Origin: an uncultured bacterium
GTDB taxonomy: Bacteria > Bacillota_I > Bacilli_A > RFN20 > CAG-826
DNA: 50,818 nt
Reading direction: 5' to 3'
Assembly: GCA_949292105.1 (NCBI GenBank)
Contig: CASEYK010000017.1
Coordinates: 1 to 50,818, forward strand
Shown: positions 264 through 9,287 of the stretch, one piece after another
How positions within the stretch are numbered: the first letter of the stretch is position 1
Layout: each line of letters starts with the position of its first letter
Translations under genes and position numbers: made by a program
Notes under the pieces: generated by a model
What the model was told of the DNA's origin: nothing
Seen by the model: only the letters and a program-made list of their open reading frames with translations
The model's database searches: none

Positions 264-2303
264 ATGGGCAAAGCAATTAAACGAATACGTGTTGGATCGT
301 TCATTACCATTTTGTTGGAACTTATCCTCATTGCTACTTTTTGTGCGCTTTATTTCAATAATGTTTTCCATTTAAAGGAATACATTGCTGTTGAGTACAT
401 TATCGTTGGTGCTGCGGCTATCGTTTTCTTGAATTGTTTATTTGTTTGGATTGTCGTTATTTTAATTTCGCGTTTAAGACAACAAACTGATTTGCACGCC
501 GCTGAAGTTATTGGTAGTGATGTCCAAGAAGCATATAATTTCGCCATGATAGGCTTGGTTGTTACTGATAATAAAGACATGGTTCTTTGGACTAATGATT
601 TATTTAAAGATCGACATATTGATATCATCGATTCAAATATTTTGGTGTGGCAACCGGATTTAGCTGAATTAAAAGAAAGTGCCGGTAATGATAAAACAAC
701 CAAAGTTGTTATTAATTCTCGCAATTACGAAGTAAAGTTTTTATTGGAAGCAGGTCTTTGGATTTTTAAAGACATTACTGACTACGAATCTATCTACAAA
801 TACTCGAAAGAACAAGCACCTGTTATTGGCATATTGTCTTTAGACAACTATCAAGATGTTGTTCATGGTGAAGATGATTTTAATGATACTGTCACCAAAG
901 TTAAAAATGTCATATTCAATTACGCCAAAGAATATGGTGTGCTTTTAAGAAAAATCAAAGATGACAGTTACTCAATGCTATGCAATTATGAATCTTTTGC
1001 CAAAATGAAAGCTGATAATTTTTATATTGTTGATAAAGTTAGGGAAATTGGAGCGGGCACAGATATTCCTCTCACTATTTCCATTGGATTGGCGCATGAA
1101 TTTCCAGATGTTATTAAACTTAACGAATTAGCCAACGAAGCTCTTGATATTGCCATGTCAAGAGGTGGTGATCAAGTCGTTATTTCTGCTTATGGTTCCG
1201 ATATGGAATTTATTGGTGGTAAAACTGAAGCTCAAGAAAAAAGAAATCGTGTTAAAGTTAGGGTTTTGGCCGATTCTCTTATTGGTTTAATCAAAACATC
1301 TTCGCGTATCCTTATTATGGGACACCGCGACATGGATATGGATGCCCTAGGTGCTTGTTTGGGCATTAAAGCTATTTGTAGTCGATTATCAAAACCATCC
1401 AAAATAGTGGTGGATTTAAAACTTACCGAGTTTAAAACACGAGCTGCGATTACTTCAAATTTTTCAAAAGATGAAATCGGCGAAATCATGATTAGTCCTA
1501 AAGAAGCAGCTGAACAAATTAGTCCTGATACTCTACTCGTTGTTTGTGATGTTCACATTCCAAGTATGGTTATGGCACCTAATTTGCTTGAGAAGGCGAG
1601 TAAAATTGTCGTCATCGACCATCATAGACGAGCTGAAGAATATATTGATAGCCCAGTATTTAATCATATTGATCCATCAGCCTCTTCATCTTGTGAATTG
1701 ATAGCTGAATTAATTCGCTATGCTTCGATTAATCCACGCATAGAATTACCTCAAATTTTTGCTACCATTATGCTCTCTGGTATTTTTCTCGATAGTTCAT
1801 ATTTCAAGAGCAAACACACAGGTTTAAGAACATTTGAAGCTTGTACCATTCTCAAAGATTATGGTGCTGATAACTCTCTTGCTGATGATTTGCTTAAAGA
1901 TGATTTTGAAGAATATGTGACAATTAATGAACTTGTCAGAACGATGCAGACACCCGCTTATGGAGTTGTTTATGCCATAGGTCCTGAAAATCGTATATAT
2001 GATAGCGCTACGCTCGCCAAAGCTGCTAATTTGTGTTTGACCATGAAAGGTAATCATGCCGCTTTTGTCATCGGAAAAACTTCTAATAAAGATGTTCGTA
2101 TCTCTTGCCGAAGCGATGGTTCGATTAATGTTCAGTTGCTCGCTGAAAAATTAGGTGGTGGTGGCCATTTTACTTCAGCGGCGGTATCCATTGAAAAAGC
2201 TGATTTAGAAACGGTAAAAAATTCTTTGCTCAATGTTTTAGAGACATCCTTGAATATGGCGAGAGCTGATGCTAAAACAAGATCTAAGCTGGAGGAAGAT
2301 TGA
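264..2303 (+). CDS. gdpP: Cyclic-di-AMP phosphodiesterase GdpP
   Basis: A membrane-bound phosphodiesterase that hydrolyses c-di-AMP to pApA, so it sets second-messenger levels controlling potassium and osmolyte transport and envelope stress. The 679-residue length is close to B. subtilis GdpP. Two N-terminal membrane helices (about 12-32 and 40-70) are followed by a PAS-like segment and a degenerate GGDEF domain with RGGDQ near residue 300. The C-terminal DHH/DHHA1 module has GHRDMDMDALGA at about 353, VCDVH, DHHRR at about 452 and GGGGHFTSA at about 631. The ATG has GAAGG 7 nt upstream, and TATAAT lies at 238-243. It heads the rplI-dnaB-walJ-rlmH run, as in Bacilli. A c-di-AMP synthase is not in the window. 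Confidence 0.95.
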   Translation: MGKAIKRIRVGSFITILLELILIATFCALYFNNVFHLKEYIAVEYIIVGAAAIVFLNCLFVWIVVILISRLRQQTDLHAAEVIGSDVQEAYNFAMIGLVVTDNKDMVLWTNDLFKDRHIDIIDSNILVWQPDLAELKESAGNDKTTKVVINSRNYEVKFLLEAGLWIFKDITDYESIYKYSKEQAPVIGILSLDNYQDVVHGEDDFNDTVTKVKNVIFNYAKEYGVLLRKIKDDSYSMLCNYESFAKMKADNFYIVDKVREIGAGTDIPLTISIGLAHEFPDVIKLNELANEALDIAMSRGGDQVVISAYGSDMEFIGGKTEAQEKRNRVKVRVLADSLIGLIKTSSRILIMGHRDMDMDALGACLGIKAICSRLSKPSKIVVDLKLTEFKTRAAITSNFSKDEIGEIMISPKEAAEQISPDTLLVVCDVHIPSMVMAPNLLEKASKIVVIDHHRRAEEYIDSPVFNHIDPSASSSCELIAELIRYASINPRIELPQIFATIMLSGIFLDSSYFKSKHTGLRTFEACTILKDYGADNSLADDLLKDDFEEYVTINELVRTMQTPAYGVVYAIGPENRIYDSATLAKAANLCLTMKGNHAAFVIGKTSNKDVRISCRSDGSINVQLLAEKLGGGGHFTSAAVSIEKADLETVKNSLLNVLETSLNMARADAKTRSKLEED

Positions 2304-5896: not shown

Positions 5897-7012
5897 TTAA
5901 TATTGAGGTCTTAATTGTCGCATAGACAGCCACATCGTTCTCAAACCAAGCAAGATTATAAAGAACATAACGGCGTAATTAGGTAATATGAAACCTAAAA
6001 TCATCGCCAATAGGCCAGGACAGAAGCACGACCAGGCATTGATTTTTTGGCATGTAAAAAACGATAAATAGCGATAGTAATTTTTCTTACCTCTTGTGAG
6101 GAGGAAAATCATTAAGCCCATGAAGAAAGTCAATCCGATGTAAATGGCTTCAAAAATTAAAGTAGAGTAGAGAAGCGTATTATCTTTACTCGTTAAATAA
6201 CTGAGATTAAAAGATTGTTTCCAATTGTCAAAAGCTCCATCGATATAAGCCGTGGTTTTCATCAGAGTTGTTTGATTTTCAACATTAGGAACATATGTGG
6301 TCTCGCTGACTGTGACAGTTAAATAATCTCGTAGCAAAGAGTTTGTTACCTCGTGATGCTTCCAATCTCCGCCACCAGATGTGCTCAATGTTGTTGTGGT
6401 TGGTTTATAAATCGCTGTATAAACGCCGCTCGGATAAAAAATAATGAATGAAGGGCGATAAAGCGTTTTAGTTTCTTCTTCGCTTGTTAAATTGCTATTG
6501 ATAGAATCTAAATCATCGGTTGTTCCTTCTATTGCTGTACCAGAAATATATGTTTTTGCAACAACAACATCTAGCAAGTCATCGAGCGTTGAGGAACCGC
6601 GTGTAGAACGAATAGTGTAATATACTTCAAAATCAACCTGACTTGTTTCGCTATTAATGTATTGAAAAATTGGAAGAATATCTTGCTCGGCTGATGGGGA
6701 GTATTTCACTCCATCTTTTGTCGCACTTAATTCGTGCTCATCATCTATTGAAAATTCATAGCCATTGAGGTAAATATCCATAGTGGATCCAACGAGCTGA
6801 ACATCATAACCATATGTATTGCTAGTTAAAAACTGAGAGCCATAACTATTGCTGATACTTACCATCGTTGGAATAATTGGCAAAAATACGCCTAAGATAA
6901 AACAAATAAGTGCCGACCACCAAGGCAATGTTTTGCCACATTCGACAACTCTCGCATTGGAAAATGGTGAGCCAAGCACATTGAATAAAGTTACTTTAGT
7001 TTCTGCTTTCAT
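5897..7012 (-). CDS. Membrane protein with a large extracytoplasmic domain, unknown function
   Basis: A 371-residue integral membrane protein. One helix near the N-terminus (WWSALICFILGVFLPIIPTM) is followed by about 230 residues rich in Ser, Thr, Asp and Tyr that should lie outside the cell, then three or four C-terminal helices. This layout resembles DUF1189/MalA-type proteins of Bacillota, but I see no diagnostic motif. The open frame extends to a GTG at 7069. I chose the ATG at 7012 because AGAAGGAA lies 8 nt upstream and because a good promoter (7048-7076) falls inside the longer version. Confidence 0.75.
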   Translation of the reverse strand: MKAETKVTLFNVLGSPFSNARVVECGKTLPWWSALICFILGVFLPIIPTMVSISNSYGSQFLTSNTYGYDVQLVGSTMDIYLNGYEFSIDDEHELSATKDGVKYSPSAEQDILPIFQYINSETSQVDFEVYYTIRSTRGSSTLDDLLDVVVAKTYISGTAIEGTTDDLDSINSNLTSEEETKTLYRPSFIIFYPSGVYTAIYKPTTTTLSTSGGGDWKHHEVTNSLLRDYLTVTVSETTYVPNVENQTTLMKTTAYIDGAFDNWKQSFNLSYLTSKDNTLLYSTLIFEAIYIGLTFFMGLMIFLLTRGKKNYYRYLSFFTCQKINAWSCFCPGLLAMILGFILPNYAVMFFIILLGLRTMWLSMRQLRPQY

Positions 7013-7047
7013 TAATCTATTTCCTTCTAATCTCTTATGTAGTTGAT

Positions 7048-7076
7048 ATTGTATGGTATTATCGCCCACTTTACAA
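7048..7076 (-). promoter_or_regulatory. Promoter of the 5897-7012 membrane gene
   Basis: On the minus strand TTGTAA (7071-7076) and TACAAT (7048-7053) are separated by exactly 17 bp, a good sigma-A-type promoter. Transcription would start near 7041, giving a leader of about 30 nt that contains the AGAAGGAA ribosome binding site. This decides the shorter start at 7012. Confidence 0.6.
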
Positions 7077-7096: not shown

Positions 7097-8395
7097 TTAT
7101 TGCTGGATTTCTCTCTGAGGAATCTCTCCTGCCTTTGTTAATGCCCATTTTGTTACTAGCGGTCCAACTAGCTCATAGACAATTGTGCTGACGATAATGC
7201 AGGTGTAGAGCAAATCACCAGTCAGCATTAAATCAGCATCTCCGAGCGAAGTAAAAAATAATTTGGCGCTTGAAGCGAGTCCTAATGCGACACCAGCTTG
7301 CGGGATAAGAGTAAAACCTAGATATTTTTTAACGGTTGGTTCACAGCGAGTAATTTGTGCTCCGATAGCCGAACCGCCCCATTTTCCAATAACACGGCAA
7401 ATGATATAAATCAAAGCTATTGCAATAACAAGAAGGGCTGCTTCGTCCATAAAAATACCAAAATTCAAATTGGCGCCACTAATGATAAAAAAGAGCATAA
7501 AAATCGGCGCGGTGAATTTCTCGAGAAAAACATTTGTCGTTTCTATTCCGCGAGCAAAGTTTACATAAATTGCTCCCATTGCCATCACTGTCAACAAACT
7601 AGATAATTGAAAAGAAAATCCCCATCCTAAAGTGCTCGTTTCAATCATTGATAAACCGACGCAAATTAACACCGCTGCGACACAGATCATCATTCTATTG
7701 CCCCGACCTTTGAACCAGCGAGTTGCTAATGCAATAACAAATCCCATGGCCGCTCCAATAACTAGTGATAATACAATTTCGAGCAAAGGAATAACCAATC
7801 CATCAATGACATCAAAACTGCCGCCCACTGCGATGACTTTGCTGATGGCAAATAAAACAGCGAAAGCCATCAAAGCGACACTATCATCGAAGGCGACTAC
7901 TGGAATTAGAGTTCTTGTCACTGGCCCCTCTGCTTTATACTGTTGTATAACGAGCAAAGTAGCAGCAGGAGCAGTCGCACAAGCCATTGATCCAAGAGTC
8001 AATATCATCGGGATTGATAAGCCCATGTCTTTCAAACCGCAGAAATATCCAATTAAAAGCCCAATAATCACGATTGCGGCTCCACCTAGCGCCTCAAAAA
8101 TCGTAATGACTGTTGCTCTTTTACCTACTTTTTTTAATGTTGATAATTTAAAAGAACCACCGATAGTAAATGCAATAAAGCCAAGAGCGATATCACTAAT
8201 CCAGCTCACACTAGAAAGAATATTGTTAAATTGACCTTGATCAAAAAGACCTAAAACCCACGGTCCAATTAACACGCCAGAAAGCAAATAACCTGTAACA
8301 TTTGGGAAATGGACAATTTTCATCAGCTTTGACATCAATAGTCCGACCATCAAAGCTAATCCGACCCAAAGAATGCTGGCAATAACAATTGACAT
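7097..8395 (-). CDS. Cation:proton antiporter, CPA2 family
   Basis: A 432-residue polytopic transporter with about 12 membrane helices, no cytoplasmic tail and no TrkA-N domain. Family features include the N-terminal VTGYLLSGVLIGP segment, the FIAFTIGGSF helix and the discontinuous-helix region with AFDDSVALMAFAVLF. It probably exchanges Na+ or K+ for H+ across the cytoplasmic membrane. AAGGAAG lies 9 nt upstream of the ATG. The gene starts 2 nt after the PII-like gene at 8398-8727, so the two form an operon and the small protein may regulate the channel. Ion specificity cannot be read from the sequence. Confidence 0.88.
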   Translation of the reverse strand: MSIVIASILWVGLALMVGLLMSKLMKIVHFPNVTGYLLSGVLIGPWVLGLFDQGQFNNILSSVSWISDIALGFIAFTIGGSFKLSTLKKVGKRATVITIFEALGGAAIVIIGLLIGYFCGLKDMGLSIPMILTLGSMACATAPAATLLVIQQYKAEGPVTRTLIPVVAFDDSVALMAFAVLFAISKVIAVGGSFDVIDGLVIPLLEIVLSLVIGAAMGFVIALATRWFKGRGNRMMICVAAVLICVGLSMIETSTLGWGFSFQLSSLLTVMAMGAIYVNFARGIETTNVFLEKFTAPIFMLFFIISGANLNFGIFMDEAALLVIAIALIYIICRVIGKWGGSAIGAQITRCEPTVKKYLGFTLIPQAGVALGLASSAKLFFTSLGDADLMLTGDLLYTCIIVSTIVYELVGPLVTKWALTKAGEIPQREIQQ

Positions 8396-8397
8396 GT

Positions 8398-8727
8398 TTA
8401 GAAGCTTCCTTCGTAACTTTCAAGAGGAATAACAAACATTCCGCCTCGGCAACGAGTAAAGTGTTTAGTCGATTCACGAATAATGTTCTGAACATCCTCG
8501 ACTTGATTTTCTTCGGCGACGATATAAAGCGTTGTATTGTTTTCAAATTTGCCATGTTCAAAAAGTGACAAATTGACAAACATTGGAACTTCCCCATCGT
8601 TTTCTAAAGTGTGTTTTAAAGAAGTGGAAGGAATAACAGTGCCGTTATATCCCATTTTTGATAATTTCATCAATGTTTCTTCAGCGGCGTGACTATTTTC
8701 CAACACTGCAAATATTAAATGTTTCAT
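8398..8727 (-). CDS. PII-like signalling protein (DarA/PstA-like size and C-terminus)
   Basis: A 109-residue soluble protein with a ferredoxin-like pattern. It starts MKHLIFAVLENSHAAEETLM and has an NTTLYIVAEENQVEDVQNII segment and a GGMFVIPLESYEGSF end. These resemble the NTTFMIGVED strand-helix and the VFVLPVDEF end of the c-di-AMP-binding PII-like protein DarA/PstA, which also has 109 residues. The middle, corresponding to the ligand loops, differs and lacks the TGGFL motif, so the ligand is unknown. The ATG at 8727 follows GAGG at 9 nt; the upstream frame extension to 8892 overlaps the promoter and is not used. It is co-transcribed with the antiporter. Family assignment by eye is moderate. 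Confidence 0.65.
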   Translation of the reverse strand: MKHLIFAVLENSHAAEETLMKLSKMGYNGTVIPSTSLKHTLENDGEVPMFVNLSLFEHGKFENNTTLYIVAEENQVEDVQNIIRESTKHFTRCRGGMFVIPLESYEGSF

Positions 8728-8758: not shown

Positions 8759-8786
8759 ATTATATGACTTTTTTGTTGTTTTACAA
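8759..8786 (-). promoter_or_regulatory. Promoter of the PII-like/antiporter operon
   Basis: On the minus strand TTGTAA (8781-8786) and TATAAT (8759-8764) are separated by 16 bp. The predicted start is about 20 nt upstream of the ATG at 8727. The short TTGT/ACAA inverted repeat over the -35 could be fortuitous. Confidence 0.6.
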
Positions 8787-9262: not shown

Positions 9263-9287
9263 ACACCCAATTATGGGTGTTTTTTTG
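9263..9287 (+). terminator. Intrinsic terminator of ssrA
   Basis: ACACCCA (9263-9269) and TGGGTGT (9274-9280) form a 7-bp stem with a 4-nt loop followed by seven T residues, 10 nt after the tmRNA CCA end. Confidence 0.92.

Follow-up and report, generated by a model that had tools for sequence, protein, structure and literature searches.

Gene pair and its surroundings

The window, which is the whole stretch of 50,818 nucleotides analysed here, carries on its minus strand a gene for a 109-residue PII-like protein followed by a gene for a cation/proton antiporter. The features of the locus, by position in the window, are as follows.

264..2303, plus strand: gdpP, encoding a c-di-AMP phosphodiesterase (PF24898, DHH, DHHA1); context only
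5897..7069, minus strand: membrane-protein-like ORF of 390 aa, starting 27 nt past the antiporter gene, no Pfam match
7097..8395, minus strand: cation/proton antiporter of 432 aa, PF00999 only, NapA/NHA2-like predicted fold
7883..7888, minus strand: Asp170-Asp171 codons of the antiporter (alignment column; presumed role)
8398..8727, minus strand: PII-like gene, 109 aa, first of the pair (ORF calls, homologue starts and AlphaFold model)
8401..8415, minus strand: C-terminal YEGSF codons of the PII-like protein, with GAAGGA a few bases 5' of the antiporter ATG
8446..8466, minus strand: codons of the short B-loop (residues 88-94), without the PII motif TGxxGDGKI (model and alignment)
8539..8625, minus strand: codons of the T-loop (residues 35-63, beta2-beta3), low pLDDT (model and alignment)
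8759..8786, minus strand: promoter-like hexamers with 10/12 matches and a 16-nt spacer, 31 nt 5' of the PII-like start codon
8860..9252, plus strand: tmRNA, divergent from the pair, with the same neighbour in locus L025

The ORF of the PII-like gene could extend to 8892 (164 aa in the mechanical ORF list), and the start was set at the Met at 8727 because homologues begin there. Its stop codon is followed by AC and then by the antiporter ATG at 8395, which confirms the 2-nt spacing described in the first-pass annotation. The GAAGGA within the C-terminal codons may double as the ribosome-binding site of the antiporter. Codons for E/D-G at this C-terminal position, often GAAGGA, were found in 49 of 72 loci with the PII-like gene first, in none of 32 with the antiporter first and in 15 of 18 solitary PII-like proteins, the last count indicating that translation coupling is not the sole cause of the motif. 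The promoter-like site is weak, since the region has 10 such sites compared with 6.4 +/- 2.5 in shuffles. In L025, a locus of the same genus, a homologue of the 5897-7069 ORF also lies 3' of the pair, and the window's ORF is a possible third member of the operon. A terminator-like hairpin (9263-9280) was seen beside the tmRNA gene of the window, and PADLOC gave no defence-system match. The presence of gdpP in the window had been noted correctly, and a DAC domain is encoded elsewhere in the window's genome, indicating that c-di-AMP metabolism is present in the organism; because the pair is not adjacent to gdpP, the latter is weak evidence for a c-di-AMP link.

Pfam assigned residues 14-420 of the 432-residue antiporter to PF00999 (Na_H_Exchanger, 1.7e-26) and, up to E=1, revealed no RCK/TrkA or other extra domain, in agreement with the earlier description of an antiporter that lacks a regulatory domain. 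At the same limit, RCK_C/TrkA_C was found in neither protein of the pair. TIGR00932 (2a37, CPA2) scored 32.8 bits, far below its cut-off of 238.3, so that only fold and motif speak for the label 'CPA2'. The AlphaFold2 model (pLDDT 81.6) matched NHA2 (Z 36.5), NapA (Z 34.5) and SOS1. Asp170-Asp171, which we take to be the ion-binding pair of NapA-type exchangers, is conserved in all 102 paired antiporters in which the column is filled (103 rows including the window, one gap) and in 21/21 unpaired antiporters, and R334 and K338 are kept in paired and unpaired antiporters alike. The catalytic residues of the antiporter are intact. When 95 relatives were searched, the 20 best antiporter matches (>570 bits) all had a PII-like neighbour, whereas most of those at 300-462 bits had none. 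The window's own genome also encodes one unpaired antiporter paralogue (L122), beside a gene that is presumably of the LysR type. Since such sister antiporters exist, the regulator is dispensable for this type of transporter.

Fold and loop layout of the PII-like protein

The AlphaFold2 model of the PII-like protein, built from a 24-row alignment, reached a pLDDT of 81.8 and a pTM of 0.74. Its elements (E2-9, H13-24, E30-34, a low-confidence stretch at 35-63, E64-72, H73-87 and E95-102) give the topology beta-alpha-beta-beta-alpha-beta with a ferredoxin-like core. Foldseek against the PDB yielded 41 matches at E<=0.001, with 9.3e-5 for 3l7p and 2.9e-4 for 4wk1, and every named row was PII or PII-like. 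In VIA-align, PstA 4wk1 came first (Z 11.3; 84 residues, 2.1 A), tied with DarA 4rle (Z 10.9) and GlnK1 2j9e (Z 10.7), and the lower matches were DUF3240 3ce8 (Z 10.0) and SbtB 6n4a (Z 9.9) and 6mmc (Z 9.6). These matches establish the PII fold at the level of the model, and the first-pass annotation was right on this point. A sequence search of the PDB gave nothing informative; OspB and Rab2 were unrelated false leads. Two Pfam families matched below threshold, CdAMP_rec PF06153 (18.6 bits, cut-off 27; residues 62-92) and P-II PF00543 (17.6 bits, cut-off 25), and the PF00543 gathering score was passed by 4 of 10 remote relatives (25.4-28.1).

In every one of the 127 aligned sequences (the window protein and 126 relatives), T-loop length falls within 28-33 aa and B-loop length within 5-8 aa. 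Conservation is highest at G29, T30, G95, F98 and P101: residue 30 is Thr or Ser in 126/127, a Gly precedes beta4 in 121/127, and position 98 is aromatic in 122/127 with Trp counted. His39 occurs in only 49/127, and there is no conserved cysteine or histidine cluster. Neither TGxxGDGKI nor GGFL is present in the PII-like protein, as judged from its sequence and the alignment.

The protein had been likened to the c-di-AMP receptor DarA/PstA because of its length and C-terminal strands. As described in passages of PMC4475381 and PMC4316997, PstA has its T-loop at residues 35-38, its B-loop at 65-94 and the conserved motif TKLxxxGGFLxxGNTT, and a short T'-loop with GGFL together with a long B'-loop defines DarA/PstA. 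The first of these sources, in the same passages, gives 20 residues for the PII T-loop, 6 for the PII B-loop and TGxxGDGKI as the B-loop motif, and places pstA with a thymidylate kinase gene. The family described here therefore has the loop layout of canonical PII (long T, short B), the reverse of DarA/PstA. It shares with DarA/PstA the length, the fold, Gram-positive hosts and the beta2 Thr (T30 here) that corresponds to the adenine-contacting Thr28 of PstA (PMC4316997, in part), and it differs in the loops, the missing GGFL and the gene neighbours. Moreover, 63 of the 75 non-f1 genomes with a PII-like protein encode DarA in a gene of its own (0/24 in family f1), so that the two coexist in 63 genomes; a search of the rest of the window's genome for canonical PII or DarA gave no match at E<=1e-3.

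It could be argued that the protein is a true DarA/PstA-family receptor that moved beside an antiporter by chance, as the top rank of PstA in VIA-align, the weak PF06153 match and the production of c-di-AMP by the organism (DAC domain, gdpP) would allow. We regard this as very improbable. GlnK is tied with PstA and DarA in the structural comparison, and the protein stays under every DarA cut-off, scoring only 17 bits against 140 for NCBIfam DarA NF058593 in addition to the sub-threshold PF06153 score. The reversed loop lengths and the absent GGFL, as far as the cited passages define them (PMC4316997, PMC4475381), and the separate DarA genes also argue against it. The likeness to DarA is only at the level of the fold; the suggested kinship did not hold up, and that both proteins have 109 aa is coincidental.

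A second possibility is that the protein senses metals or anions, in the manner of CutA or PII-NG, and answers the transported ion instead of a nucleotide. In Geobacter, PII-NG genes are clustered with those for CzcABC, a metal exporter driven by protons, and metal sensing has been proposed for them (PMC7726332); the DUF3240 structure is among our matches. The lack of a conserved Cys/His cluster and the scattered His39 speak against such a sensor, as does the long T-loop, whereas CutA loops are truncated (PMC6516651). We consider it improbable.

Conservation and co-inheritance of the pair

A single-sequence search detected homologues of the PII-like protein in 23 of 95 relatives. A first profile matched in 60 of 392 genomes of the phylum, at least three of these matches being weak or false, and a wider profile, A3, matched in 116 of 395 genomes of the class (99 at E<=1e-10). 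The locus counts below leave out G472 (PII-like match, E 2e-11) and matches to A3 weaker than 1e-9. Of 126 distinct PII-like relatives, 104 adjoin a same-strand antiporter at a distance of no more than 400 nt, and in 97 of these cases the distance is no more than 30 nt. The antiporter was downstream in 72 and upstream in 32; the median gap was 2 nt when the PII-like gene came first (67/72 within 30 nt) and 11 nt when the antiporter did (30/32 within 30 nt). Four of the remaining loci had another, divergent antiporter, and 18 had none at the profile's threshold. The pairing rate is no artefact of an antiporter-based search: the PII-like protein led to 122 of the 126 relatives, of which 100 are paired, and the antiporter to only four (L134, L136, L140 and L142). 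Adjacency that recurs in 104 of 126 relatives is more than chance, and the pair is kept in related genomes across many families of uncultured Bacillota. With the PII-like fold of the model, both grounds on which the first-pass annotation could have been rejected are removed. The pair also occurs on a Subdoligranulum variabile plasmid (OY725837.1, Clostridia). In Proteobacteria, Photobacterium and Ruegeria replicons carried antiporters without a PII-like neighbour.

The 18 unpaired loci comprised all nine of family f15, five in f1, L213 in f14, L194, whose sequence ends 69 nt past the PII-like gene, and L205 and L211, which are extra PII-like copies within 1.5 kb of an antiporter. In genome G047, the unpaired f1 gene is divergent and lies beside an antiporter-like ORF that the profile missed. 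The nine f15 loci (L051, L054, L057, L059, L060, L064, L065, L083 and L084) have a related PII-like gene without an antiporter or a constant neighbour.

Some loci showed other arrangements. At L035, L036, L037, L042 and L020 (f1), the PII-like gene is divergent from a different, more distant antiporter, which suggests partner switching in several f1 genomes. At L205 and L200 (G560) and at L210 and L211 (G100), one antiporter has two PII-like genes nearby, no more than a few kb away, and an oxidoreductase-like ORF lies in between. Two weak profile matches in frames of ~450 aa (G234 and G330) were considered as fusions of the PII-like protein and the antiporter and rejected, having no antiporter match; we take these frames to be methyltransferase-like ORFs.

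The two genes have also been inherited together. On a FastTree tree of 123 antiporters (102 paired, 21 unpaired), the label downstream, upstream or unpaired needs 6 changes, compared with a mean of 46.8 after shuffling, and 30 of the 32 antiporter-first antiporters form one fully supported group. Gene order switches twice in the PII-like tree and twice in the antiporter tree. Partner distances correlated with a Spearman coefficient of 0.67 (102 pairs), to which shared species history adds; the best of 500 shuffles reached 0.10 and the best of 500 within-family shuffles, a partial control, 0.39.

The 18 relatives without an adjoining antiporter indicate that some PII-like proteins act elsewhere. 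This bears on a third explanation, in which the operon is shared for ion or osmotic homeostasis and the PII-like protein targets an enzyme or a transcription factor instead of the antiporter. It would fit the relatives that stand alone (f15 and five f1 genomes), the antiporters without a partner and the lack of a fusion protein among the frames found. However, a near-exclusive antiporter partner over families, in two gene orders and with correlated trees, is what a direct partner predicts, and we judge the other-target explanation unlikely.

c-di-AMP, proposed mechanism and known systems

Rfam revealed an RF00379 (ydaO) c-di-AMP riboswitch just 5' of the antiporter in 24 of the 32 antiporter-first loci (4/5, 16/20 and 4/7 by batch), namely L071, L072, L073, L074, L075, L140, L173, L174, L176, L178, L180-L182, L186, L189, L190, L192, L198, L200-L203, L210 and L212. 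The eight misses were L067 and L134, both outside the main clade, L179, which has only 48 nt of upstream sequence, and L197, L206, L207, L208 and L209. The riboswitch ends 20-90 nt before the first possible start in 20 loci; in the other four the longest ORF overlaps the aptamer, indicating that the true antiporter start is later there. No riboswitch was detected in 48 PII-first loci (0/15, 0/13 and 0/20), some of which have little upstream sequence, at 17 unpaired antiporter loci, at three solitary PII-like loci, before the window's pair or elsewhere in its genome. In the window's 39-genome neighbourhood, G061 was the only carrier; at its locus L228 (G061:C102) the riboswitch precedes an antiporter that has no PII-like gene beside it, and the ORF that comes next (83 aa) contains paired CxxC motifs. 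The riboswitches, a link at the RNA level, make the module part of c-di-AMP and ion homeostasis in the antiporter-first clade, where c-di-AMP would control expression of the operon, a control that is not demonstrable in the window's lineage.

Taken together, we consider it fairly probable that the 109-aa protein is a dedicated PII-like regulatory subunit that gates the adjoining NapA-type antiporter; that it has a ligand and touches the antiporter is inferred. The protein would form a homotrimer, and a small ligand, probably an adenine nucleotide, would bind the cleft between subunits. An adenine nucleotide is suggested because the beta2 Thr that PstA uses for adenine is kept, and since the phosphate-binding motifs are missing, none of c-di-AMP, AMP, ADP and ATP is singled out. 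In one ligand state the long T-loop, the probable partner-binding loop, would dock on the cytoplasmic face of the antiporter and either inhibit or release cation/proton exchange. The module would serve Na+/K+/pH homeostasis, and in the antiporter-first sister clade c-di-AMP would set its expression. In GlnK-AmtB and SbtB-SbtA, T-loop docking is governed by ligands of the intersubunit cleft (passages of PMC10710835), a scheme that agrees with the length and conservation of the T-loop here and with the dedicated linkage of the two genes. A broader proposal, that the whole family evolved to gate NapA-type antiporters on a canonical-PII loop layout with c-di-AMP or a related adenine nucleotide as ligand, is tentative and rather doubtful.

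The oligomeric states present a real difficulty. CPA antiporters are dimers. The use of PII appears to be restricted to transporters able to be trimers, according to part of the review PMC10710835. A trimeric regulator on a dimeric transporter needs asymmetric docking, an unusual oligomer, or binding by monomers or one T-loop.

The analysis ties a barely annotated, widespread PII-like family (strong matches in 99/395 class genomes) to a dimer-type antiporter, and it brings together a PII-fold partner encoded with an ion transporter and a clade under a c-di-AMP riboswitch. The pair is a concrete case for whether c-di-AMP or energy charge reaches antiporters via the PII fold. If the broader proposal is true, c-di-AMP would reach cation/proton exchange without RCK, a dimeric transporter would be under the control of a PII protein, and c-di-AMP would act twice on the module of the antiporter-first clade, at the riboswitch and at the protein. 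At a time when PstA had no known target, Choi et al. 2015 suggested for it a role like that of GlnK, in the control of an ion transporter.

In the open-access journal literature, we came across no description of a CPA antiporter whose gene is paired with one for a PII-like protein. The transporter targets of PII named in the relevant passages of a review are AmtB, Amt1, NrtABCD, UrtABCDE and SbtA (PMC10710835). SbtB-SbtA resembles the pair in that a PII-like protein lies beside a secondary ion transporter, and SbtB is a lower-ranked structural match; however, SbtA, the cyanobacterial bicarbonate transporter, is a trimeric Na+/solute symporter (same passages), and the sequences are unrelated beyond the fold. 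GlnK-AmtB shares the PII fold, the long T-loop with a short B-loop and a gene adjoining a membrane transporter, whereas the target here is of the Na_H_Exchanger family, not Amt, and the window protein, unlike GlnK, lacks TGxxGDGKI and stays below the PF00543 cut-off. The way in which c-di-AMP is known to reach cation/proton exchange is RCK_C control of CPA antiporters (KhtT, CpaA). KhtT-KhtU and CpaA share the c-di-AMP link, and in KhtTU, too, the antiporter is encoded together with a small cytoplasmic subunit; the soluble partner here is PII-like instead of RCK_C, and the antiporter has no RCK domain. In the case of PII-NG and CzcABC, an operon likewise combines a PII-type gene with a cation exporter driven by protons, but there the exporter is an RND pump, the hosts are proteobacteria, the cations are metals and not monovalent, and the PII subgroup is another one. 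The nearest precedents of the pair are PII-NG beside CzcABC and the RCK_C systems KhtT and CpaA.
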